A stretch of DNA of 35,709 bases from an uncultured Granulosicoccaceae bacterium (GTDB lineage: Bacteria; Pseudomonadota; Gammaproteobacteria; Granulosicoccales; Granulosicoccaceae). The translations under genes and the position numbers were made by a program. The notes beneath the pieces were generated by a model. The model was given only the letters and a program-made list of their open reading frames with translations, made no database searches and was not told the DNA's origin. Where the stretch lies: positions 1 to 35,709 of the forward strand of contig CAKZUP010000190.1 in the NCBI GenBank assembly GCA_937922945.1. The letters run 5' to 3'. Positions within the stretch are counted from its first letter, which is position 1, and every line of letters starts with the position of its first letter. Shown in pieces: positions 1 to 12,446 of this stretch.

Positions 1-2259
1 GGCCACAGGAGCCTAAGTACAGAGGTAGATCCAGACGCCCTCCAATCACTCATTGAAAAGCTACTGTTACACATCAGCTCACAATGCCAAAAACACGATC
101 CAGATATCGAGCTTCGTCTGCTCTCGGCGCTAGCCGCTGGCGCTGATCAAATCGCCGCAGCTGCCGCAGTGGATACTGCCGCAATGGATACTGCCGCGGT
201 GGATACTGCCTCAGTGGATACTGCCGCAGGCTCTACAGGTGAAGAACAACTTGTGAATCAGCTATGGAAACTGCATGTCATTCTGCCCTTTGACAGAGCG
301 TCCTATAGAAATACGCTACACGATGGCATGACTCACTACACACAGCCCTCCATGAGTTATGACGAACTGCTACCCCATGCCGAACGAGTATTTGAACTGG
401 CTGACCGCTCAGCGCACGTCATTATCGATAAAGACGAATACGCTGCATACTGGAAAACCGTGAGATTTCAAACACTCGGCGAAATCCTGGTGCGTCAAGC
501 CGATCTGTTAATCGCGGTATGGGATGGAAAAGTTGCCAACGGAAAAGGCGGAACCGCCGATGTAGTCAGTACAGCGTTAACTCAAGAGAAAACCGTTATA
601 CGCATTAATCCAGACACTCTGGAAGTCTCATGCTTGCAGGCAACTGAAAACAGTAAAAGCCTGATTACTCTGGTCCAATCACCGGCATGGGGGCCATCAT
701 GCAACCCAGATGGCCTATTTGTTGACGATGGTGAGATTGACAAACTCATTGAAAAATTGCTGGTATTCCCAGCATTCAAAGCCGTAAAAAAACCTGATGC
801 CAGTACTCAACATAATCACGACGAGGATGACGGCAAGGAATTGGTGTTCGAATCAGCAAGAGCCTACTTTGGCCAATATCCAAAAGAAGCAGCTGAATTA
901 TCTGAAGATGCAACGAACACGAACGCACTACTTCATGAAGATATTCCATTACGGTGGCTTTGGAATTTCTCATGGCCCAGAAAGCTCTTAGCTGGCCAGA
1001 CATATCCAGAAAAAACAAACAGACAAACCTACGCCATAGTTTACCAATGGTTCGCTAATCGACTCATCGGCAAGAAATCGAAACCAACAGACTCATCGGA
1101 AATATCAGATCAAACTCAAAACGCACCAAAGCAAGGAGTGGCTCTGAAGGTTGACTATGCATCTGAAGATTGGCTAAAACCAGTAACGCAAAGTGCATGG
1201 GATACCGTCTACGAACCTATGCCAGGTCAAGATGCAGAAACGCCGCCAACAACGCTCTCAGAACCGGTTTATCCACGGCCGGACTTTCTGGCAGACGCTG
1301 AGAAAAATGTGCGTCCGCACATGGTCACAGCAGATGCAATAGCAACCTCGCGTGGCCATGCATATCGTTCCAGTTACGTGCTTAATTTTCTTGGTGGCGC
1401 TTTCGCCGTCTGCTTAGGTCTTGTCGGTTTGTTTTTTGAGAAAAAACACTATTTTGTGGCTGCTGAAGTTATCGCACTGGGCCTGTTAATCGTTATTTAT
1501 ATATACGCGTACCAGAAGTGCTGGCATAAACGCTGGCTTAATGCGCGACAAATAGCTGAAACATTGCGGGCCGGTCGTTTTCTGGCCTGGTTAGGCTACG
1601 CAGGAAGACGATCGTTAAAGGCAGACGCGCCATGGACTGCGTGGCATACGAATATGGTTATGGCAGAAGCATCCGTACCTGATGCAACCATAAGCACCCC
1701 AGATATTCGTTATATGGCGCTTGAACTTCGAGCATACGTCGCTGACCAAATCGGCTATCATAAGCCCAACAGCGAGAGACTGAGGAATATGCACCACCGG
1801 CTAGATACGTGGGGAAAGCTATGCGTGTTCGCAGCCATATTCGTTGCCATTTTCTATTTGGCGTTCTTCTATTATTTTGACTGTTTCAATGCTCAATTTT
1901 GTGACTACCCAAAAGGCTCTCCAACCTGGCAAGTTGTGTTCGCTAAGTATTTTGTTACTACGTTTTGTGCAGGAGCGCCAGTATTAGCTGGCGCATTCAT
2001 GGGCATTCGCTTTCAGGGAGACTACGAACGATTCGCTGATCGATCAAACGAGACGCAACTCGAATTATCCCGCATAGATCGCAGACTGGAAAATCTCCTC
2101 ATCGACATCGACACTGCAAAAATAGATACCAACTCGACTGCTATGCCAGCTTTCGAACGGTTTTCAATCATCGTTTTCGACTTGCTGGAAATTTATGAGC
2201 TAGACGTTGAAGATTGGCGATTCGTGTACGCGGCCAGACCAATTCCGGAGGTGGGGTGA
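1..2259 (+). CDS. SLOG-domain membrane protein with SLATT-like 2TM regions (5' end outside window)
   Basis: The frame is open from base 1, so the true start lies upstream. The first residues, GHRSL, and the following LRLLSALAAGADQIAA match the opening of SLOG-fold proteins, where a GHR motif and an 'LA-GAD' helix help bind nucleotide ligands. QADLLIAVWDGK and the next GKGGTADVV fit the later conserved SLOG strand and glycine-rich turn. The C-terminal half has two hydrophobic hairpins (about nt 1375-1520 and 1815-2010). The first is followed by an R/W-rich amphipathic stretch (RWLNARQIAETLRAGRFLAW) as in SLATT domains, which are predicted pore-forming or membrane effectors. Expected role, from family knowledge: a nucleotide-derived signal is sensed by SLOG and transmitted to the membrane. 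Its stop overlaps the next gene by 4 bp (GTGA), so the two should be co-translated. A 15-bp tandem repeat is embedded in the SLOG region. The SLOG call is fairly firm and the SLATT call is likely. Confidence 0.75.
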   Translation, partial: GHRSLSTEVDPDALQSLIEKLLLHISSQCQKHDPDIELRLLSALAAGADQIAAAAAVDTAAMDTAAVDTASVDTAAGSTGEEQLVNQLWKLHVILPFDRASYRNTLHDGMTHYTQPSMSYDELLPHAERVFELADRSAHVIIDKDEYAAYWKTVRFQTLGEILVRQADLLIAVWDGKVANGKGGTADVVSTALTQEKTVIRINPDTLEVSCLQATENSKSLITLVQSPAWGPSCNPDGLFVDDGEIDKLIEKLLVFPAFKAVKKPDASTQHNHDEDDGKELVFESARAYFGQYPKEAAELSEDATNTNALLHEDIPLRWLWNFSWPRKLLAGQTYPEKTNRQTYAIVYQWFANRLIGKKSKPTDSSEISDQTQNAPKQGVALKVDYASEDWLKPVTQSAWDTVYEPMPGQDAETPPTTLSEPVYPRPDFLADAEKNVRPHMVTADAIATSRGHAYRSSYVLNFLGGAFAVCLGLVGLFFEKKHYFVAAEVIALGLLIVIYIYAYQKCWHKRWLNARQIAETLRAGRFLAWLGYAGRRSLKADAPWTAWHTNMVMAEASVPDATISTPDIRYMALELRAYVADQIGYHKPNSERLRNMHHRLDTWGKLCVFAAIFVAIFYLAFFYYFDCFNAQFCDYPKGSPTWQVVFAKYFVTTFCAGAPVLAGAFMGIRFQGDYERFADRSNETQLELSRIDRRLENLLIDIDTAKIDTNSTAMPAFERFSIIVFDLLEIYELDVEDWRFVYAARPIPEVG
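169..228 (+). repeat. In-frame 15-bp tandem repeat, four units (VDTAA)
   Basis: Four adjacent 15-bp units (169, 184, 199, 214) read GTGGATACTGCCGCA with one or two changes each and encode VDTAA, MDTAA, VDTAS, VDTAA. The array follows the alanine-rich end of the SLOG GADQIAA helix and comes before the strand LHVILPF, where family members usually have a short link. Near-identity at DNA level indicates recent replication slippage. Confidence 0.9.
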
Positions 2260-3980
2260 AACAGCGACAAAACCTTTATGTGAAGCTGTGGCGAGAATCA
2301 ACTTATTCAACCAAGATTCTCACCGTTGCCGCTGTTATCAGCCTGACGTTCGGGTTTGCCGGTTGGTATGGTTTAAGAAACGAACTCGGCCTCAACCTGG
2401 GCGACATAATATATCGTTCATTGGCAGCATTAACCCTTGCAGTGCCATACCACTCTGCTGAAAACTGGAACTACGACTGGCGAATCGAGATTGCACGCTG
2501 GGCCGGAATGACAGCACTGGTTATAGGCGCAGCGAAGGCATTGCTTGCGTTGTTTCAACATCATCGGCGCGAGCGTAAGCTACGTCGTCGTCACAATCAC
2601 TGGCTAGTGATTGGTTCGAATGCTTTTGCGGAGCAACTGTGTCAGTCAGCGAAAAGCGATGGTCATATCGTTCACTGGCTATGCGCACCAAGCGGACAAA
2701 TAGACAGCAAACACCTTTATACCGATCATCAGTCATGGTCACTGGCGAACGCGCAAGCGCATGGCATCGAAAACGCGGCTGGCATTGTAGTCGCTACCGA
2801 TGATGATGCGATAAATGCTGCTATAGCGCGTGAAATCAGAAGCGAATATCACGATGTCAACCAACTTACCATAATGGCCAGAATACAATCTCCGTGGCTT
2901 GCCTTACGCTTGGACGAGCAGGAGGGAGTTGCCGGAGTAACAGTATTTTCTGAAGCTCAAATGGCCGTTCGCCGCCAACAACGCCAGCAACCTGCGTTTC
3001 TGGTAGCAAACAAATTAGGTCAAAGACGACTTCACATTGTTATTGTGGATTTTAACGATTACGGTGAGGCTGTGCTGGTGGAAACCCTTCTGTCTTCATT
3101 AACAACCGACTTAGGGAAGCCATTGTTCACTATCGTCGATCCTCGCGCCAATGCGATAAAGCAAGATCTTGAAAACCGATATCCTGAGTTGCACGAATCA
3201 GCCGATATGGCGTTTATCGAAGGCACCATATCATCCTCGGAATTGGTGCTGAACCGTACACAAATTCTGGCTATTTCCGATCCGGCTCCAGTCTCTGTTT
3301 ATTATTGTTGCCATAACAACGATGAGCTTTCATTAGAAACCTCTATCGCGCTGCAATCCATCACGCAATTTGCCGCTGGAAACGGCGCACCCATTGCCAC
3401 TAGACTGTCTATAGAGTTCGGTTCAGCAAACGTTGCACCAGGAGTAAGAGACCTTAAACCCGGCAATCTTATAAGCTTTGGATCACTGTCGGGGCTAGCC
3501 ACCGATTCAGGATTATTCTCCAGCAATACGGACGTGTTGGCGCGCGTATTTCACGAGGCGTATGTTGAGTCTGCAGACGATAATAAAACAGCAAAGACCG
3601 ACTGGGTAAATCTAAGCGAAGATATGAAACAAGCCAATCGCTCCCTTGTTGTTCACATCCCGGCAAAGCTACACAGCATGGGAATTGACATAGAACCATG
3701 GCTGCGCAAGATAAACAGGATTCACAGTAAAAACAAAATCCATTTTCCCAATGTTACCGGGTTGTCGGATAATACTGAACGAGTTGAACCACTGGCGATA
3801 CTGGAACATGAGCGTTGGATGGCGGAACGACGGCTGAATGGATGGATCTTCGGGCAATCAAGAGATAATCAGCGCCGTGTTCATCCAGATCTGGTTCCGT
3901 ATGCACAGCTTAGCGAAGACTCTAAAAAATACGATAGAACAATGGTTATGACACTGGCCAGAATGCTGGAACGCAAATAA
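2256..3980 (+). CDS. Membrane-anchored TrkA-N/RCK-like protein with C-terminal RyR domain
   Basis: I chose the GTG at 2256 (574 residues) because it overlaps the upstream stop as GTGA and has GGAGG four bases ahead; a TTG at 2214 is the alternative. There is a TM segment at about residues 21-40, a short hydrophobic stretch at about 47-67 and a second TM at about 83-101, then a basic linker (RRERKLRRRH). A first Rossmann-like region begins WLVIGSNAFAEQL and includes AGIVVATDDDAINAAIA; a second begins LHIVIVDFNDYGEAVL. Both resemble TrkA-N/RCK nucleotide-binding modules. Residues 514-572 are a RyR domain: EHERW, then GWIFG, then HPDLVPYAQL. RyR domains are small ligand-binding modules of ryanodine receptors that also occur in bacterial conflict systems. 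The layout resembles an RCK-gated channel, but no TVGYG-type selectivity filter is visible. It probably works with the SLOG protein at the inner membrane. The ligand is unknown. Confidence 0.72.
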   Translation: MKQRQNLYVKLWRESTYSTKILTVAAVISLTFGFAGWYGLRNELGLNLGDIIYRSLAALTLAVPYHSAENWNYDWRIEIARWAGMTALVIGAAKALLALFQHHRRERKLRRRHNHWLVIGSNAFAEQLCQSAKSDGHIVHWLCAPSGQIDSKHLYTDHQSWSLANAQAHGIENAAGIVVATDDDAINAAIAREIRSEYHDVNQLTIMARIQSPWLALRLDEQEGVAGVTVFSEAQMAVRRQQRQQPAFLVANKLGQRRLHIVIVDFNDYGEAVLVETLLSSLTTDLGKPLFTIVDPRANAIKQDLENRYPELHESADMAFIEGTISSSELVLNRTQILAISDPAPVSVYYCCHNNDELSLETSIALQSITQFAAGNGAPIATRLSIEFGSANVAPGVRDLKPGNLISFGSLSGLATDSGLFSSNTDVLARVFHEAYVESADDNKTAKTDWVNLSEDMKQANRSLVVHIPAKLHSMGIDIEPWLRKINRIHSKNKIHFPNVTGLSDNTERVEPLAILEHERWMAERRLNGWIFGQSRDNQRRVHPDLVPYAQLSEDSKKYDRTMVMTLARMLERK

Positions 3981-4053
3981 AGCGTGCCGTCCAGATATAA
4001 TGACGCAAACGATAAGGGCGTATGAACAATGCTGTTATCCTTAACGACAACCA

Positions 4054-7000
4054 TTACATAGCGAACGCTCGTCTAATTTCATCGATAAGCTCGTGCGAGA
4101 GTCCGTGCTTATCAAATTCATCGAAATCTCCAAGCACACCATCCTCCCAGCTCATCTGATTTCCTACTTGGACACCGCGATACTTCAGGTATAGCTCTCG
4201 AGCCTCCTCCACTCTTCCCTGAAACATAAGAGCGCTGGCAAGATTGGTGTTCGGTATTAATGAATCAGGATTCGCTTCAATCGCAAGCCTACTTGCCTGT
4301 TCCGAGAATTCGAATTTTCTGGCAAACAGTGCACTGTAGGATGCAAACAAATAGTACTCATACTTTACGTCATTGTCCGCATTGGTCAGTATGTTCGAAT
4401 CAGACAATTGACGATATTGTTGTTCGAGTAGCGTTTCAACTTCCTGACTTTTACCGTCATCTATCGCTTTTCTGATTTCATCTGTTAGTGCAAATAAGGC
4501 ACTGACAAATTGTCGATTATCGTCAAAGAAGCGATAAACCAATAACTGGTCGTCCGTGCCATAAAAAAGGTTGAACCCGGCATAGCCGTTGGCAACTTTA
4601 AACAGATTGCCATCGTTGTCCAAAAACTCTCGGTTTACTAGTTTTCCTTTACTGTTAGCACGTTCTTTTAATCCGTAGTAACCATCCTTATACTGAAGCG
4701 GCTGCTCTTTTGCATCATAGATACGAATTTCCTTACTGCCCCGTTCGTCCAAAGCAATAGTTCTGATCGCATAGCCTGAGTCTGATACAACACGTTCACC
4801 GGTCTCATCAAATGTCGCTTCAGAGGTTCCACCGTTTTCAAGGTAGCTTGTGGTTATGGTTGCGTAGCCTTTTGGCCCTATAGCAGGCTGATTGTCTTCT
4901 GTTAACCAGGTTGATTCAATCACTCGCCCTTCACTATCGGTTTTTTGTTTCAAACCAAGAGTCGAATTCGTATACCAGGACACAGTGTATTCAAGCTCTC
5001 CGGTATCGGAGTAAATAAATTGAGCCTTTGTGGTATTGCCAGTCGGTGCAACTGGGTTGTTATCGGCATCAAACCAAGCTTTCTCTAACACGCGATCTTG
5101 ACTATTAACTTTTATTGAATATCTGGCGTATCCCTGACTAGATATTGTAGGGCGCCCGGATGCGTCGAAATAAGCAATACTTATGATGTTTCCCCGAACA
5201 TCGTATTCATACAGCGTTGAACTCGCACCAATTGATCCAACAGTGAGATTACCATCACTATCAAAAACAGATTCTTTAACAAGCTTTCCTAAAGCGTTGT
5301 ATTCCTTGGTTACCGACGCAACCCCACTCTCCTTGCGTAAAAGCTCTCCGTTGTTATTATAGTAGTCGTTACGTATAACTCGATTGGCGTGATCGTACTG
5401 ACTTCTAATCAGGTAGATTCTACCGTGCGCAGTTACGGGCAATGGGTTGCCGCTGGCATCGTATTTTCTTTTTTCGGTTGTATTTCCACGCGCATCATAG
5501 CTATACGAGTTGCGAAATAGCGCTTTATAACTATCGGCAGATTCCGTGTCTACCCCCAAGTACTGCTGAAACAAGATATTTCCACGTTGGTCGAAGCCAT
5601 AATCTATACGTGAATAAGTCAAATTATCTTTAACAATATCGATTGGCTCTCGGTTGATGCCAAAATATGATACCGAGGTATTATTTCCCTTAAAATCGTA
5701 TTCATACTTGTTAACCGCATACAAACCATCCTTCAAGGTCAGCTCGTTGTTATCATCATAAAAAGCAGCTTCTGTTTGCCTATCCAGTTCATCGTATTTG
5801 CGCTGAACGTAATGCACTCGATCTGTCCAGAATGCAGGATTATTATTCTCATCGTAGTAAGTTAACTTAACGACATTCCCTCTGGAATCGTACTCGTTGG
5901 TATTTCGAGCATAGTTTCTTGTACCACGCGTTAGCTCTCCAGACTCATCAGCCGACATTTCTTCAACGCGCTGACCATTTGCGTTATAAGAAACCATAAC
6001 CCGTTCCTCGAATACGTGCTTCTCCGCGACTTCGTTGTACACGTAGCGATGAATATCAATCAGGTTACCAACTTCATCATAAGCTCTTGTAACACGGCTG
6101 GTACCAAGTCTATTGTTATGTTTGGATTTATTATTTCCTGTAGGTTTACCGTCCACGCCAAAATAGTCTTCCTGAGTAATCCTACCAAGCGCATCTCTTA
6201 TGTACACAATTTTATGAACGCCCTCATCGTTTACATTTGGCTCACCGTCTATACCGAAAGTTTCACGAGAGAGGATATTTCCCAAATGATCTTTAGTTAG
6301 GCGCGACGAGGTATAGCCGTCTGTATTAAACGTGGGCTCACCGTCAACGCCAAAAACTGTGTTGGAAATTTCGTGGTTTCGTTCATCGTATTCGATAGTT
6401 GCACGCGCGTATCCATCGGGGCCTAGCGTGAGCTTACCGTCGGTATCAAAATAGCTAAATTCAACACGGTTACCTCGAGAATCATAGACTGAGGTAGTGC
6501 GGGCGCTTTGATCAGATGAAATAACCGGTTCATTGTTAGTATCAAAATAGGCACTTTCAGCGACGTTACCACGCGCGTCATACTTGTATATGATCGATGC
6601 ATAGCCGCTTGCATTTATGACACGTTCATTTTTATCGTCGAAGTATTCATGCTTAATAACCCGTCCGAGGGCATCGTAAGATGTTAATCTCTTTGCATAA
6701 CCATTAACACTTAGCGCTAATTCTCCGTTTGCATCATGTGTTGTCGACACTATTTTATTACCAACTTGGTCGTAGACCGATCGATAGTCCAGCACGCCGT
6801 TTTGGTCTGGTACAGGGCTACCTGAACTGTCCAGGTTTACTGTTCTGATAACACGTCCGAGTGCATCGTAATACCAATTTGTTTGTGCTACACCATCGTT
6901 ATTATTTACAGGGTTTCCATTGGAGTCCAATCGCTTCACCGACGACACATTCCCGACATCATCAAACGTGTGCTGAACGGTGGTGTGATTCTCCCCTTTT

Positions 7001-9246
7001 TTGTAGGGCTCGCCATTGATACCGAAAAAACTGTAAGAGGATCGGTTACCTCGGCTATCAAATTCAGATCTTTCTATCGCGTGTCCTTTATATAAGGTTA
7101 AATTTCCATCGGGGTCTAAATATCGGTCTTCAACAATGTTGCCTCGTTCATCGAAGCGGCGCTCCAACTTCGCAATCCCGTCTGCATTTCTCGTAAGCTC
7201 GGCATTGGTATCAAAGAATGACCAACTTTGTCGATTGCCGCGTGCATCATAGGTGTAATCAGCTCGAGCGTAACCCGCCTCATTTGAGATTGGCTCACCA
7301 TCAGTATTAAAAAATTCCAGTCGTATTTGCTGACCAACTGCGTTGTAGGTGGCTTTTGAACGCGCGTAGCCTTCACTGGATAATATAGGTTTTTCATTAG
7401 TGCCAAAAAAACGATACTCCGATACAGCACCCGACGGATCAAACGTGAGCTTGACAATGGCCGTGCCCTTTTTATCCAGCACGAGGCCGCCTTTTGCATC
7501 ATGATAGCTCCACTGCACTTTGCGTCCCTTGTCATCGTATTGAAGCTTTGTACGGAAGTATCCCTGCTTATTCAGAACCGGCTCACCATCTACACCAAGA
7601 TTGTAGGCTTCAACAAACTGTCCAAATTCATCGAATTCGTAAATAGATTGATGGCTACCTTCAGTAGCGTGCACAGCTGGATTTCCGTCGATATCGTAGT
7701 AACGCTTGGACGTCATATTTCCAAGGCCGTCGTACTCAAAAACAGATTTGGCGAATCCATCGGTACTATTTATTGGGTTACCGTCAGCGTCTAAATACGA
7801 TCTGCTTATACCGTTACCCCAACCATCGTGCTCATCAATTTTTTGAGAGACACCTTCATTATTAGGGATTAACTCGCCCGACTCATTGTAGTAACGCGTT
7901 GCCAGTTTTATATTCATCGCAGAGTAATCCATCACTATTGCCGCTATTCCGCTGCGTTCTCGCGAGGGCTCTCCAGTAGCGCCAAGCGACATAACCTTTA
8001 CCGGCATTCCATTTTCATTGTACTGAGTGAATGTGCCGAAAACGCCATTGGCATCTGATCGAGGCGTACCGTAGTAGTCTTCGTACTGACGCTTTATCAC
8101 GTACCCGTTTGAATCAAATGTGAGCCGATGTTGAGTGATTGATGTCCGAATAGCATCTTTGTTAACCGAACTATCCTGCCGCGAACCAAACTGTTCCAAT
8201 GAGCTGGTTCCTTGCGTGGCTGCACGCCCAGGCCCTGCTCTAAAAACGCTTACAGCCTCTGTTCCAGTTGGTGAAAATTCGTAGTTCTCTGTTCGAATAA
8301 GTTTTCCATTTAATCCAAATACACGAATACTTTGAACGGTATCGTTCTGATAGGCATATACCATTCGTGCATAGTCATTGCCAATGACATGATCGGTAGA
8401 CTCGCCTCTACCATCAACAATTTGCAGCGCACGCACCTTGCCACCACGTTTTTCTATTCGATAGTTCGAGTAGCGCTTTGATCGTTGCTCGTCGCTTAGA
8501 GGCCGCCCTACCCCCACAGGTACAGCGAACTGATGATTTACGTTTGCGAAGTGAGCGACTTTTAAGCGGGTTGTATCCCATCGATAGAAACCGACAGAGG
8601 CACCTATCGCCAAAAGAAGCATTAAGCCTGTAGCAACTAATCTTCGGCTTTTTCGCTGGCGTTGTGCATCGCGTTGAACAAGATCGTCGAACCGAACCCT
8701 TAATAGAGCCGCAGCAATTCGCAGCAACGCTGTTCTTTTAAGTTGTTTATCGCTGGTTCCGGCTCTTGATCTGACATCGGCAGCAATCGGTTCACGCAAG
8801 GTCTGCGACCATGTGATTTGGCCTTCATCACTGATTTTTTCTGGTACCTTGCATAGAAGCGGCGGGAATGCGTCTTCAGGTTCACCTTCTACCAGCAGTG
8901 CAAGAATTTTATCGCTCTTACCCATGGCGTGAAATAGACGGATTTCTTCACTGACCCATGCAGACGCAGGTGTATCAGAGGAGCAAATAACAATTAGATA
9001 CTCAGAGTTTTCGAGCGCTTGTCTAATCTGATCGGAGAGATCAGTTGAGGCCGGGATTTCGTCTTCATCCCTGAAGACTTTTTTCAGTCGTGCCGGGTAA
9101 CCCTCTTTTCGAAGCGTGCGCGGCACACGGTAGGTCTCAAGTTCATTTAATAGCCATTCCGCCCATTTCCGATCGCGCGGAACATGCCGGTAACTGACAA
9201 ACGCGGAGTATTGCTCCGGCTCTCGTATCTTCGAATGACTATTCAT
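4054..9246 (-). CDS. TIR-domain membrane protein with about 38 YD-type 32-residue repeats and TPR-like tail
   Basis: I start at ATG 9246 (1730 residues); a TTG two codons earlier is also open. Residues about 10-150 form a TIR domain: YSAFVSYRH, a BB-loop-like FRDEDEIPAS, YLIVICSSDTP and SAWVSEEIRLF. E101 in W97-x3-E101 sits where the catalytic glutamate of TIR NADases (such as SARM1) lies. A helical linker (LLRVRFDDLVQRDAQRQRK) and a TM helix (about 203-221) follow, as in proteobacterial TIR-TPR proteins. From about residue 375 to 1575 there are about 38 repeats of about 32 residues with YDxxGN at positions 1-6, YFD at 12-14, GxP at 17-19 and GYA at 25-27. The tail (about 1629-1690) looks TPR-like (ASALMFQGRVEEARELY). 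The TM likely leaves TIR in the cytoplasm and the repeats outside it, but topology is inferred. It lies 39 bp after arcC on the same strand and converges on the SLOG/RyR pair. By eye the gene is more A+T-rich than arcC and uvrD. Confidence 0.8.
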   Translation of the reverse strand: MNSHSKIREPEQYSAFVSYRHVPRDRKWAEWLLNELETYRVPRTLRKEGYPARLKKVFRDEDEIPASTDLSDQIRQALENSEYLIVICSSDTPASAWVSEEIRLFHAMGKSDKILALLVEGEPEDAFPPLLCKVPEKISDEGQITWSQTLREPIAADVRSRAGTSDKQLKRTALLRIAAALLRVRFDDLVQRDAQRQRKSRRLVATGLMLLLAIGASVGFYRWDTTRLKVAHFANVNHQFAVPVGVGRPLSDEQRSKRYSNYRIEKRGGKVRALQIVDGRGESTDHVIGNDYARMVYAYQNDTVQSIRVFGLNGKLIRTENYEFSPTGTEAVSVFRAGPGRAATQGTSSLEQFGSRQDSSVNKDAIRTSITQHRLTFDSNGYVIKRQYEDYYGTPRSDANGVFGTFTQYNENGMPVKVMSLGATGEPSRERSGIAAIVMDYSAMNIKLATRYYNESGELIPNNEGVSQKIDEHDGWGNGISRSYLDADGNPINSTDGFAKSVFEYDGLGNMTSKRYYDIDGNPAVHATEGSHQSIYEFDEFGQFVEAYNLGVDGEPVLNKQGYFRTKLQYDDKGRKVQWSYHDAKGGLVLDKKGTAIVKLTFDPSGAVSEYRFFGTNEKPILSSEGYARSKATYNAVGQQIRLEFFNTDGEPISNEAGYARADYTYDARGNRQSWSFFDTNAELTRNADGIAKLERRFDERGNIVEDRYLDPDGNLTLYKGHAIERSEFDSRGNRSSYSFFGINGEPYKKGENHTTVQHTFDDVGNVSSVKRLDSNGNPVNNNDGVAQTNWYYDALGRVIRTVNLDSSGSPVPDQNGVLDYRSVYDQVGNKIVSTTHDANGELALSVNGYAKRLTSYDALGRVIKHEYFDDKNERVINASGYASIIYKYDARGNVAESAYFDTNNEPVISSDQSARTTSVYDSRGNRVEFSYFDTDGKLTLGPDGYARATIEYDERNHEISNTVFGVDGEPTFNTDGYTSSRLTKDHLGNILSRETFGIDGEPNVNDEGVHKIVYIRDALGRITQEDYFGVDGKPTGNNKSKHNNRLGTSRVTRAYDEVGNLIDIHRYVYNEVAEKHVFEERVMVSYNANGQRVEEMSADESGELTRGTRNYARNTNEYDSRGNVVKLTYYDENNNPAFWTDRVHYVQRKYDELDRQTEAAFYDDNNELTLKDGLYAVNKYEYDFKGNNTSVSYFGINREPIDIVKDNLTYSRIDYGFDQRGNILFQQYLGVDTESADSYKALFRNSYSYDARGNTTEKRKYDASGNPLPVTAHGRIYLIRSQYDHANRVIRNDYYNNNGELLRKESGVASVTKEYNALGKLVKESVFDSDGNLTVGSIGASSTLYEYDVRGNIISIAYFDASGRPTISSQGYARYSIKVNSQDRVLEKAWFDADNNPVAPTGNTTKAQFIYSDTGELEYTVSWYTNSTLGLKQKTDSEGRVIESTWLTEDNQPAIGPKGYATITTSYLENGGTSEATFDETGERVVSDSGYAIRTIALDERGSKEIRIYDAKEQPLQYKDGYYGLKERANSKGKLVNREFLDNDGNLFKVANGYAGFNLFYGTDDQLLVYRFFDDNRQFVSALFALTDEIRKAIDDGKSQEVETLLEQQYRQLSDSNILTNADNDVKYEYYLFASYSALFARKFEFSEQASRLAIEANPDSLIPNTNLASALMFQGRVEEARELYLKYRGVQVGNQMSWEDGVLGDFDEFDKHGLSHELIDEIRRAFAM
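4500..8122 (-). repeat. Coding region for about 38 tandem 32-residue YD-type repeats
   Basis: This is the repeat section of the TIR protein. Unit length is mostly exactly 32 residues (96 bp), with a few units longer or shorter by 1-7 residues. Examples of unit starts are YDARGNVAES, YDSRGNRVEF, YDALGRVIKH and FDERGNIVED. Units have diverged so that only the aromatic, Gly/Asn and Asp positions persist, which points to an old array rather than recent slippage. The spacing differs from Rhs/YD polymorphic toxin repeats, and no Rhs core or toxin tip follows. A beta-rich solenoid or spiral is a reasonable guess. Confidence 0.8.
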
Positions 9247-9285
9247 AAACAACCGAGGTTCTCAATAGTGAGTGCGAGTTACAAG

Positions 9286-10278
9286 TTAAAGATCCGCTAT
9301 CGAATTCTCAGTCACAATCTGTGTTCCTGTTTCACCGCGTAATGCAGGCATTACCTCTTCCAGTTGACAAATAATAACGCGCTGACCACCACCCTCAATA
9401 AATCGAATAGCCGCATCAATTTTTGGCCCCATGCTTCCCGGTGGGAACTGGCCTTCTTTGCGATAACGTTTAAGCTCATTAAGTGACACAACATCGAGCT
9501 CTTTCTGTTCTGGAGAGCCGAAGTTAATGGCCACTTTGGATACTGCAGTAAGGATCATCATAACCGGTATGCCGGTGACGTTCGCCATGTGTGCAGAGGT
9601 AAGATCTTTATCGATAACCGCCGCCACGCCTTTGCGTAAACCATTTGGCAGTGGAATAACCGGAATGCCACCACCGCCACCAGCAATAACAATGGTGCCG
9701 CGTCGCGCCAACACCTGCACCAGGGATACGTCGCAGATATGTCGTGGCTTGGGCGATGCAACAACATGCCGCCATCCACGACCGGAATCCTCTTTCATCA
9801 ACCAGCCTAATTCTTTGCTGATAGTAGCTGCTTCTTCTTCAGAGTAAAACGCGCCGATCGGTTTACTCGGATTTTCAAATGCAGGATCGTTCTCGTTAAC
9901 TTCAACCTGAGTCAGCAACACAGCCACGTGACGATCATTATTTATTTCTCGAAGCGAATTTTCAATGGCCTGTAGCAGCAGGTACGCAATCCCACCCTGA
10001 CTATGTGCAACGCAAATATCCAAAGGCATTGGCGCTATTTTGTCTCGCGTTAGCACTTGACGCATTAGAATCTTCCCGACAACCGGGCCGTTTCCATGCG
10101 TAATGATAAGTTCGTTATCTAATGAAGTCAGTGGCAGCAAGGCTTTGGCAGTTAGCCGAGCCATTTCAATTTGTTCTTCAGAGGTCCCGGTTATATCTTC
10201 GGGGTGAGTCGCGTTACCACCAACGGCCACGAGCAAACGTTCGGGCAATTCAGTAAAAATATTTTTGACAGGTTTCAT
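9286..10278 (-). CDS. arcC: Carbamate kinase
   Basis: The 330-residue product has the amino-acid-kinase signatures of carbamate kinase: LLVAVGGNA near the N-terminus, THGNGPVVG, VIAGGGGGIPV, DKDLTSA and GSMGPKIDAA. The enzyme interconverts ADP plus carbamoyl phosphate with ATP plus carbamate and normally finishes the arginine deiminase or an allantoin/agmatine catabolic route. No arcA, arcB or arcD gene is nearby, so this is an orphan copy. The ATG at 10278 overlaps the uvrD stop as ATGA, so I prefer it over a start 12 codons upstream inside uvrD. The TIR gene starts 39 bp downstream on the same strand, so the three may share a transcript. Identification is firm; why it is coupled to uvrD is unknown. 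Confidence 0.93.
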   Translation of the reverse strand: MKPVKNIFTELPERLLVAVGGNATHPEDITGTSEEQIEMARLTAKALLPLTSLDNELIITHGNGPVVGKILMRQVLTRDKIAPMPLDICVAHSQGGIAYLLLQAIENSLREINNDRHVAVLLTQVEVNENDPAFENPSKPIGAFYSEEEAATISKELGWLMKEDSGRGWRHVVASPKPRHICDVSLVQVLARRGTIVIAGGGGGIPVIPLPNGLRKGVAAVIDKDLTSAHMANVTGIPVMMILTAVSKVAINFGSPEQKELDVVSLNELKRYRKEGQFPPGSMGPKIDAAIRFIEGGGQRVIICQLEEVMPALRGETGTQIVTENSIADL

Positions 10279-12446
10279 GCTGGCTGTAAATTCGCATAAG
10301 CAACGACAAGCCACTTGCTGCCAGCATCTTCAAAATTAACTTGCACCCTTGCCTGTTGTCCACGGCCTTCATGATCAAGTACGACACCGACACCAAATTT
10401 TCCATGCTGAACCATCTGCCCGATCTGAATACCAGAATCGCTCTCTTCCTGAAAACGGGGCGACTCGGTTGTGTTGTACACCGGCAAGCTTACGTTCATA
10501 CGCGGACGAATTTCCTCCAGTAAATTAGAGGGAAGTTCGCCAACAAATTTCGACGGCGGGTTGTATTGGTCTCGACCATATAATCGGCGTTGCTCGGCCA
10601 TGGTCAGGTAGAGTTTTTTCTCTGCGCGGGTAATGCCCACATAGCAAAGGCGTCGTTCCTCTTCGAGCTTGTTGGGGTCTTCAATAGAGCGTTGGTGTGG
10701 AAACAACCCCTGTTCCATTCCAGCCAGATACACTACCTGAAACTCCAGACCTTTAGCGGAGTGCAGCGTCATGAGTTGAACAGCATCTTCTTCTGCATCG
10801 GCTTGGCCATCACCGGCCTCAAGTGCTGCATGGGCCAGAAACTCATCCAATATAATAGCTTCCGGGTCATCGGTATAACCCACCGCAAAAGTACGCGCCG
10901 CGTTACTCAGCTCTTCAACGTTCTCAACCCTGCTTTGCCCGCGTTCAGATTGATCTTTCTTGAAGTGCTCGATTAACCCGGACATATCGCTTACGGTCTC
11001 AACTTGCTGCGGCAAATTTTGGTCAGCGATGGCTTCTGCCATGGATTCGATCATGTTGATAAATTTTGCGACCGCAGTTGCAGCACGAGCAGTAAGCCCT
11101 TTGTTTTCAACCAGAGCTTGTGCAGCTTCCCACATGGAACAATCTGCATCGCGGGCAAAGCTGCGAATTTGTGTAACCGTTTTATCGCCGATGCCACGCG
11201 TGGGTTGATTAATAACACGTTCAAACGATACATCGTCGAGATGATGTGATACCAAGCGCATGTACGCCAACGTGTCTTTAATTTCAGCGCGTTCGAAATA
11301 GCGCAGGCCTCCGTATACACGGTATTTCACACCAGCCGCAACCAGGTATTCTTCTATAACACGCGATTGCGCATTCGAACGATACAACACAGCGCAATCT
11401 TTGCGACGCCCACCTTTGTCACTGATGTAATCCAGTATTGACTCAACTATGAATCGAGCTTCATCGGTTTCGTTATACGCGTTATAAAGCGTGATTAGTT
11501 CACCTTCTCCGTCGGCCGTCCATAAGTTCTTACCGAGTCGCCCACCGTTGCAATCGATAAGTGCATTTGCAGCAGCAAGGATGTTGCCACTGGAACGGTA
11601 GTTCTGTTCCAGCCGTACAACGGCTGCATCGGGGAAATCTTTGTTGAAATTGAGAATATTCTCAACCCGCGCGCCACGCCACGCATAAATGGATTGATCA
11701 TCATCGCCAACGGCAAACACGCTGCCGGTGTCCCCCGCCATTAATCGTATCCACGCATACTGAATGGCATTGGTATCCTGAAACTCATCGATGAGCAGGT
11801 GCCGGTAACGCTTCCGGAAATGTGCAAGCAGCTCTTCATTATCACGAAGAGTTTCAAGCGCACGCAGTAACAATTCGGCAAAGTCCACTGCACCGGCTCG
11901 ATCGCAGGCAGCTTCATAAGCCGAATAAATTCGCACATATTGAGCGGTGGTTGCGTCCTGCTGATCGTCGACATGTTGCGGCCGGCGTCCCTCGTCTTTA
12001 TGACCGTTGATAAACCACTGAACCTGCTTTGGCGGGTAATGCGCTTCGTCGAGCTCCAGCGATCGCAATGTACGCTTCACCAACCGCAGTTGATCATCGG
12101 AATCGAGAATTTGAAACGCCTGCGGCAAGCCCGCCTCTTTCCAATGACTGCGCAGAAAACGGTGTGAGATACCGTGAAACGTACCTAACCACATAGACGC
12201 GACATTCATACCCAGCAGGTGCTCAACCCGGTGCCGCATTTCTCGGGCCGCTTTGTTGGTAAATGTGACAGCCATAATGCCGAAGGGCGATACACCTTCA
12301 ACCCGATTCAGCCATGCAATGCGATTGGTCAGAACACGGGTTTTGCCACTGCCAGCACCAGCGAGCACCAGCAAATGGCCCATTGGCGCAGTAACGGCTT
12401 CACGCTGCGCGGAATTCAGAGAGTCGATAAGATCAGATACGTCCAT
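10275..12446 (-). CDS. uvrD: DNA helicase II (UvrD), superfamily 1 3'-5' helicase
   Basis: The 723-residue protein matches the usual length of gammaproteobacterial UvrD (about 720). Motifs occur in order: Q-motif region LNSAQREAV, Walker A AGAGSGKT (about residues 29-36), VTFTNKAAREM (motif Ia), LLIDEFQDTN (Walker B), VGDDDQSIYAWRGA (motif III), LEQNYRSS (motif IV), MTLHSAKGLEF (motif V) and CYVGITRAEKKLYL (motif VI). The C-terminus ends with the Tudor-like module (GQMVQHGKFGVGVVL). UvrD unwinds DNA in nucleotide-excision and mismatch repair and removes RecA filaments. The start follows a 211-bp region shared with a divergent DeoR-family gene. I saw no convincing LexA box there. The stop overlaps arcC by 4 bp. 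Confidence 0.96.
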   Translation of the reverse strand: MDVSDLIDSLNSAQREAVTAPMGHLLVLAGAGSGKTRVLTNRIAWLNRVEGVSPFGIMAVTFTNKAAREMRHRVEHLLGMNVASMWLGTFHGISHRFLRSHWKEAGLPQAFQILDSDDQLRLVKRTLRSLELDEAHYPPKQVQWFINGHKDEGRRPQHVDDQQDATTAQYVRIYSAYEAACDRAGAVDFAELLLRALETLRDNEELLAHFRKRYRHLLIDEFQDTNAIQYAWIRLMAGDTGSVFAVGDDDQSIYAWRGARVENILNFNKDFPDAAVVRLEQNYRSSGNILAAANALIDCNGGRLGKNLWTADGEGELITLYNAYNETDEARFIVESILDYISDKGGRRKDCAVLYRSNAQSRVIEEYLVAAGVKYRVYGGLRYFERAEIKDTLAYMRLVSHHLDDVSFERVINQPTRGIGDKTVTQIRSFARDADCSMWEAAQALVENKGLTARAATAVAKFINMIESMAEAIADQNLPQQVETVSDMSGLIEHFKKDQSERGQSRVENVEELSNAARTFAVGYTDDPEAIILDEFLAHAALEAGDGQADAEEDAVQLMTLHSAKGLEFQVVYLAGMEQGLFPHQRSIEDPNKLEEERRLCYVGITRAEKKLYLTMAEQRRLYGRDQYNPPSKFVGELPSNLLEEIRPRMNVSLPVYNTTESPRFQEESDSGIQIGQMVQHGKFGVGVVLDHEGRGQQARVQVNFEDAGSKWLVVAYANLQPA

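Follow-up and report, generated by a model that had tools for sequence, protein, structure and literature searches.

Do three adjacent genes of an uncultured Granulosicoccaceae bacterium work together as one nucleotide-signalling module? The open reading frames occupy positions 1-9252 of the window, by which we mean the whole analysed stretch of 35,709 nucleotides (contig C190), and encode a SLOG-SLATT membrane protein (P1), a 2TM-TrkA_N-RyR protein (P2) and a TIR-TM-YD-repeat protein (P3). A sequence-only reading had proposed such a module. We give about even chances to the view that the trio is a Thoeris-like module signalling through an NAD+-derived nucleotide, with the TIR protein as sensor-synthase and the SLOG-SLATT and RyR proteins as membrane readers.

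Domain composition of P1, P2 and P3

P1 (1..2259, + strand) has 752 amino acids in the window and is cut by the left contig end, which leaves about 22 N-terminal residues off the contig. The motifs GHR, GxD, WDG and GGT of its SLOG domain (aa 1-209; 1..627, +) were fully or almost fully conserved across 60 sequences. The alignment for folding P1 consisted of the window sequence and 59 of the 72 P1 candidates listed. P1 shows the SLOG/YpsA fold with the GG-T motif and belongs to the SLOG superfamily, as had been claimed for the first gene. A profile for the SIR2 domain did not match P1. SLATT-like membrane hairpins had been claimed for the same gene too. In the SLATT-like region (1327..2235, +) hydropathy marked four hydrophobic segments (aa 457-481, 482-505, 601-631 and 651-669), and the predicted structure model has long helices across it. 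The matches to SLATT_3 and DUF4231 stayed sub-threshold: the SLATT profile scored 17.7 on P1 against a curated cut-off of 26.3, and DUF4231 scored 20.3 against 24.7 on the P1 of the same-genus genome G668. A split relative of P1 in locus L147 was above the cut-off in both SLATT models.

P2 (2256..3980, +; 574 aa from GTG) begins with the GTG at 2256, which overlaps the stop codon of P1 in the sequence GTGA. The first TrkA_N/NAD-binding Rossmann stretch (2589..2897, +) matched NAD_binding_7 with an E of 2.8e-4 and TrkA_N with an E of 3e-4, both slightly below the cut-off (21.5 vs 23.8 for TrkA_N on P2 alone). A P2 family profile matched solved TrkA in two stretches with an E of 6.7e-13, showing homology to TrkA_N/RCK domains, and the P2 relatives in L024, L146, L149 and L150 passed the TrkA_N cut-off. 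The RyR domain (PF02026; 3774..3968, +) was found with an E of 4.6e-14 and 52.9 bits against a curated cut-off of 27.4; solved RyR relatives matched with an E of 4.1e-21. The overlap, the Rossmann regions and the RyR domain that had been read from the second gene are thus all present, and the proposed check by domain profiles confirmed RyR as well as SLOG. P2 was also compared with a K+-channel-like 2TM-RCK pore (TM1, pore helix and filter, TM2). Ahead of the first strand the P2 model has helices at 19-44, 48-62 and 75-112 with a pLDDT of only 41; hydropathy showed one clear hydrophobic segment.

P3 (4054..9246, - strand) converges on P2. Its TIR domain (8875..9201, -) matched TIR_2 with an E of 2.3e-12 (47.9 bits vs a cut-off of 28) and ThsB_TIR with an E of 2.7e-7. 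The Glu at the catalytic position (8944..8946, -; E101 when counted from ATG, E103 from TTG) sits at W+4, and 64 of 70 aligned sequences have Glu there, in agreement with the plausible catalytic Glu noticed earlier. Hydropathy predicts a single TM segment (aa 204-223; 8584..8643, -) preceded by RQRKSRR. The YD/RHS-type repeat array (5077..7791, -) was matched by RHS_repeat (E 4.1e-15) and by YD_repeat_2x (34.1 bits vs 15.8), and the spacing of its repeats indicates a period of mostly 32 residues. In the membrane topology that we infer for P3 the YD array would be periplasmic. A literature search for a TIR domain combined with a YD repeat in bacteria found no paper.

The locus lies in an accessory site

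The assembly is fragmented into 225 contigs. Contig C38 ends within a P1 variant that starts about 22 residues ahead of the window and is 94% identical over residues 1-165; at the nucleotide level the first bases of P1 (window 1-497) align with L003:3-533 on C38. Because this variant is 91% identical, the sequences suggest a strain mixture in the assembly. On C38 an FMN-reductase gene lies upstream of P1, and a uvrD-type helicase gene lies downstream of P3. In the same-genus genomes G671 and G258 these two genes are direct neighbours with an empty interval, while the interval holds one ORF in G668 and five in G658; the comparison covers four genomes of the genus, out of six that carry the FMN-reductase gene. 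It supports the contiguity of C38 and C190. P3 and the helicase gene are separated by an AA-kinase (carbamate-kinase-like) gene (9286-10314, -), which is read in the same direction and falls within the interval without genes in G671 and G258. Since that interval is empty there, P1, P2, P3 and the AA-kinase gene occupy what gene order identifies as an accessory site.

The four genes scanned in the window outside the trio are ordinary (AA kinase, DeoR regulator, GSDH and calcineurin-like phosphoesterase). No patatin profile match was obtained in the window. With PADLOC there was no match for P1 and P2 and a weak match only for P3. P2 matches were present in 3 of 57 genomes, the source genome included.

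TIR genes often accompany relatives of P1

The best 80 of 262 P1 relatives from the genome collection were analysed. Of these best 80 of 262, 60 had a TIR match no more than 3.1 kb from P1, a limit chosen after the distances were seen, and 34 had one no more than 600 bases away; Sphingomonadales make up many of the 80, and these are not independent. TIR density was 64 in 446 kb near P1 vs 5 in 829 kb farther out, i.e. 24-fold higher, with a TIR profile that had been rebuilt on matches from these loci, both close to P1 and farther out. In 17 of the best 80 of 262 TIR was absent from the examined DNA, which in some cases was a short contig. Given the proximity in 60 loci and the 24-fold density, the partnership of TIR and SLOG-SLATT is not due to chance.

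RyR is usually absent from such loci, because a P2 profile match was obtained in 2 of the best 80 of 262, adjacent to P1 in L024 and about 6 kb away in L079. L024, from Phreatobacter, is the sole member of this set with an adjacent RyR gene and contains the complete trio: P2 (657 aa), a TIR-nSTAND1-WD40 protein (1390 aa) and P1 (727 aa) follow one another in one direction. Plasmid matches were taken in for P1 (2 of 7), P2 (2 of 7) and P3 (2 of 20). A Caballeronia plasmid carries P1, TIR and nSTAND1-WD40, and a Novosphingobium plasmid has a TIR-TPR gene divergent from P1, followed by CHAT.

Most P2 relatives have TIR, SLOG or both in the same locus

The set of RyR-anchored loci comprised 18 including the window, each with 7 to 36 kb of DNA; L022 and L023, whose RyR proteins are without the TrkA_N part, belong to it. 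TIR was detected in seven of the 18 (window, G668 at about 8 kb from P1, L020, L024, L135, L148 and L149), SLOG in ten (window, G668, L015, L017, L018, L019, L024, L146, L147 and L149) and at least one of the two in 13. The sequence-only reading would have been refuted if homologues of the TIR gene never neighboured the SLOG/RyR pair. This was not the outcome: TIR genes stand near SLOG-SLATT genes far above background and near RyR genes in several loci. TIR adjoins the P2-like protein in L135, L148 and L149, where the latter is the only partner of the TIR gene recognised with the profiles used.

Other third genes occur beside the P1-P2 pair. In G668 both P1 (35%) and P2 (48%) are retained, again overlapping by 4 bases, next to a divergent nSTAND1-ankyrin gene. 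RyR, patatin and SLOG-SLATT genes are consecutive in L018 and L019, whereas in L017 patatin and RyR are divergent from SLOG-SLATT. The one patatin compared, that of L018, matched the PADLOC phospholipase effectors with an E of 5.9e-45. We take these patatins to be CapV-like (PADLOC names its model phospholipase effector); they stand beside P1-P2 relatives in L017, L018 and L019, in contrast to the window.

The architecture of P3 is not unique to the window. A second TIR-TM-YD-repeat protein in G408 (L120:7925-10345, -; 807 aa frame) is 31% identical over P3 residues 12-679, and SLOG, SLATT and RyR profiles gave no match in the 18 kb covered around it. The search with P3 yielded 16 TIR loci, i.e. 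14 stretches of 13 other genomes and 2 plasmids. A SLOG or P2 match was present in eight, with a SLOG-SLATT protein only in L124 and a P2-like protein only in L135; of the other SLOG matches, five were internal SLOG-like stretches in TPR-S/cyclase-type-like proteins and one, in L134, was a short SLOG-like protein. The idea of a YD-repeat TIR protein as the specific partner was not supported, either by the G408 locus or by the P1-P2 pairs found elsewhere, whose third gene is patatin, STAND-ankyrin or none that was recognised. Because the TIR loci of the P3 search, that of G408 included, rarely hold a SLOG-SLATT or P2-like protein, the YD form of P3 is one of several exchangeable third genes (TIR, STAND-ankyrin, patatin, caspase). 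The proposal that the trio forms a module is supported in part, by the whole trio of Phreatobacter, by TIR genes near relatives of P1 and P2, and by the P2-like protein with a C-terminal SLOG next to TIR-STAND-TPR in L149.

P1 and P2 might instead be a self-contained two-gene unit and P3 an independent neighbour in the same accessory site; in this explanation the SLOG domain may itself be the nucleotide-processing enzyme with RyR as the reader. The convergent orientation of P3, outside the P1-P2 operon, fits this explanation and counts against the module, and so does the absence of a TIR match from the examined DNA of L017, L018, L019 and L147, all with P1 and P2. The two-gene unit is also in line with the G408 locus and with G668, where an nSTAND1-ankyrin gene adjoins the pair and TIR first appears about 8 kb away, in a SIR2-TIR fusion. 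Against the module count further the P2 match in just 2 of the best 80 of 262 P1 relatives and the PADLOC result for the trio. On the other hand, an independent P3 does not agree with the enrichment of TIR near the best 80 of 262 P1 relatives compared with the far flanks or with the complete trio in L024, and we regard a self-contained unit as rather unlikely.

The RyR pocket of P2 resembles that of RyDEP

According to the accessible part of a 2026 preprint (PMC13232231), the phage protein RyDEP contacts its ligand with H75, W78, H100 and D117, with H75 and D117 forming the catalytic dyad. The positions of P2 that are equivalent by spacing hold H532, W535, H557 and D574 (3807..3935, +), the gaps of 3, 22 and 17 residues being identical. 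P2 may be likened to RyDEP as a PF02026 domain with putative cADPR-contacting residues H, W, H and D, the set of ligand residues known from RyDEP and from animal R12; it differs in being a cellular gene product fused to 2TM and TrkA_N and paired with SLOG-SLATT. All 18 RyR proteins conserve both His residues, 17 the Trp and 16 the Asp; since the proteins were found via similarity including this domain, these counts depend in part on the search itself. The exceptions are Phe for Trp in L150, and Val (L017) or Ala (L015) for Asp; the Asp of L135 falls into a gap in one alignment and was taken from another. L146 and L150 had RyR matches under the Pfam cut-off, none was reported for L149, and the assignment in L135 is based on alignment and a weak P2-profile match (E 7e-5).

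The presence of the RyDEP dyad in P2 with RyDEP spacing, and the Asp kept in 16 of 18 P2-like proteins, could mean that P2 is the off-switch of such a module: tethered to the membrane, it would act as a glycosidase or sponge and clear the TIR signal, as RyDEP does for phages. We consider this unlikely. A hydrolase needs neither two TM helices nor two Rossmann domains. We prefer P2 as a reader to P2 as an eraser, since the profiles used recognised no partner of the TIR gene other than the P2-like protein in L135, L148 and L149. The reader is also preferred because, as far as the accessible part of the preprint goes, six of eight phage RyR homologues tested bound 2'/3'cADPR and RyDEP alone cleaved it (PMC13232231).

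A proposed Thoeris-like module with two membrane readers

In the Thoeris-like reading, P3 would be a membrane-anchored receptor with the repeat array sensing the insult. Its cytosolic TIR domain would then convert NAD+ to the putative signal, either ADP-ribose or one of its cyclic isomers. P1 would bind the nucleotide via its YpsA/TRPM2-like SLOG domain, whereupon the SLATT hairpins might form a pore and permeabilise the membrane. The RyR pocket of P2 would bind the same or a related cADPR, making P2 a second nucleotide-controlled membrane component by means of two putative TM helices and the RCK-like TrkA_N domains. The presumed outcome is abortive and antiphage. What speaks for this reading is the domain content of the trio, the conserved TIR Glu, the RyDEP ligand residues in P2, TIR genes near relatives of P1 and P2, the SLOG fusions of L146 and L149, the conserved P1-P2 pair of G668 and the accessory site.

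A role of the module in signalling for envelope stress or developmental cell death, rather than in phage defence, would suit the predicted periplasmic YD array and the ordinary genes scanned around the trio, but is distinctly improbable in view of the patchy distribution of P2, the accessory site and neighbours elsewhere that include the patatin matching phospholipase effectors and caspase, STAND and SIR2-TIR genes.

A more specific and rather doubtful version of the Thoeris-like reading is that P2 is a bacterial ryanodine receptor in miniature, in which TIR-made cyclic ADP-ribose gates a 2TM-RCK membrane protein through the RyR pocket, beside a TRPM2-like SLOG membrane effector. If true, one cassette would unite a ligand-making enzyme with the sensor modules of two separate animal NAD-linked calcium channels. 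The accessible part of the preprint leaves cADPR-signal binding at this domain of animal RyRs open (PMC13232231), and literature searches for the ligand of cellular bacterial RyR proteins found no paper. A RyR protein with the full cADPR-contacting set beside a TIR enzyme makes this binding question directly testable and gives a bacterial counterpart to the control of TRPM2 and RyR. The natural combinations of TIR with RyR, with SLOG-SLATT or with both bear on how Thoeris-like immunity swaps effectors.

Relation to known systems

In type I Thoeris (ThsB TIR and ThsA SIR2-SLOG) the SLOG domain of ThsA is the cADPR receptor, according to the abstracts of Thoeris papers. The window shares the adjacency of a TIR gene and a SLOG-protein gene, but in P1 SLATT-like membrane hairpins take the place that SIR2 has next to the SLOG domain of ThsA, a RyR-TrkA_N membrane protein is added, and the TIR protein carries TM and YD repeats. 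For TIR-SLATT neighbourhoods Burroughs, Iyer and Aravind predicted the 2TM SLATT protein to be an ADPr-regulated membrane effector, as given in the accessible parts of PMC9503650 and PMC7159879, in which the word RyR is absent. TIR stands beside a SLATT or SLATT-like membrane protein in both cases, whereas the window fuses the SLATT-like part to SLOG and adds RyR-TrkA_N. TIR-SLATT links are therefore already predicted; what is new is that TIR and SLOG-SLATT genes are linked to a RyR protein in which all four cADPR-contacting residues are present. No title among the Thoeris and SLATT papers names such a trio; Burroughs 2015 (NAR) and Yirmiya 2025 (bioRxiv, TIR-based systems) may describe loci of TIR with SLOG-SLATT or RyR.

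DUF4062 (Swarozyc) is described in the accessible part of PMC13174449 as an NAD+-cleaving, TIR-like NADase family of antiphage defence. DUF4062-type genes adjoin P2-like RyR genes in Arcobacter (L016, by record annotation) and S. meliloti (L015, 23.6 bits, just below the Pfam cut-off of 24.7), while the window has a canonical TIR domain.

Further observations on related loci

Some P2-like chains extend the architecture of P2: those of L146 (709-3354, -) and L149 (9114-11843, +) have TM, TrkA_N and RyR-like parts with H, W, H and D followed by a C-terminal SLOG-like domain (E 6.5e-5 and 5e-5, respectively), and the latter adjoins a TIR-nSTAND1-TPR gene. The SIR2-TIR fusion of G668 (L144:64-3021, +) is followed by an nSTAND1 gene, possibly forming a second NAD-targeting cassette. 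In L122, L125, L126, L128 and L129 TIR genes stand beside TPR-S-type proteins with an internal SLOG-like stretch; where Pfam was applied, it reported TPR-S in both L122 and L126, plus a nucleotide-cyclase domain in the former. The P2-like gene of L021 (2-7271) neighbours reverse transcriptase and FGE-sulfatase domains and an nSTAND1-FGE protein, possibly a diversity-generating retroelement next to conflict genes. Finally, protease genes adjoin SLOG-SLATT/TIR loci, namely CHAT (L013:11749-13269), caspase-like (L025:5015-7720) and trypsin-like (L038:11654-13594 and L048:7123-9429) ones.
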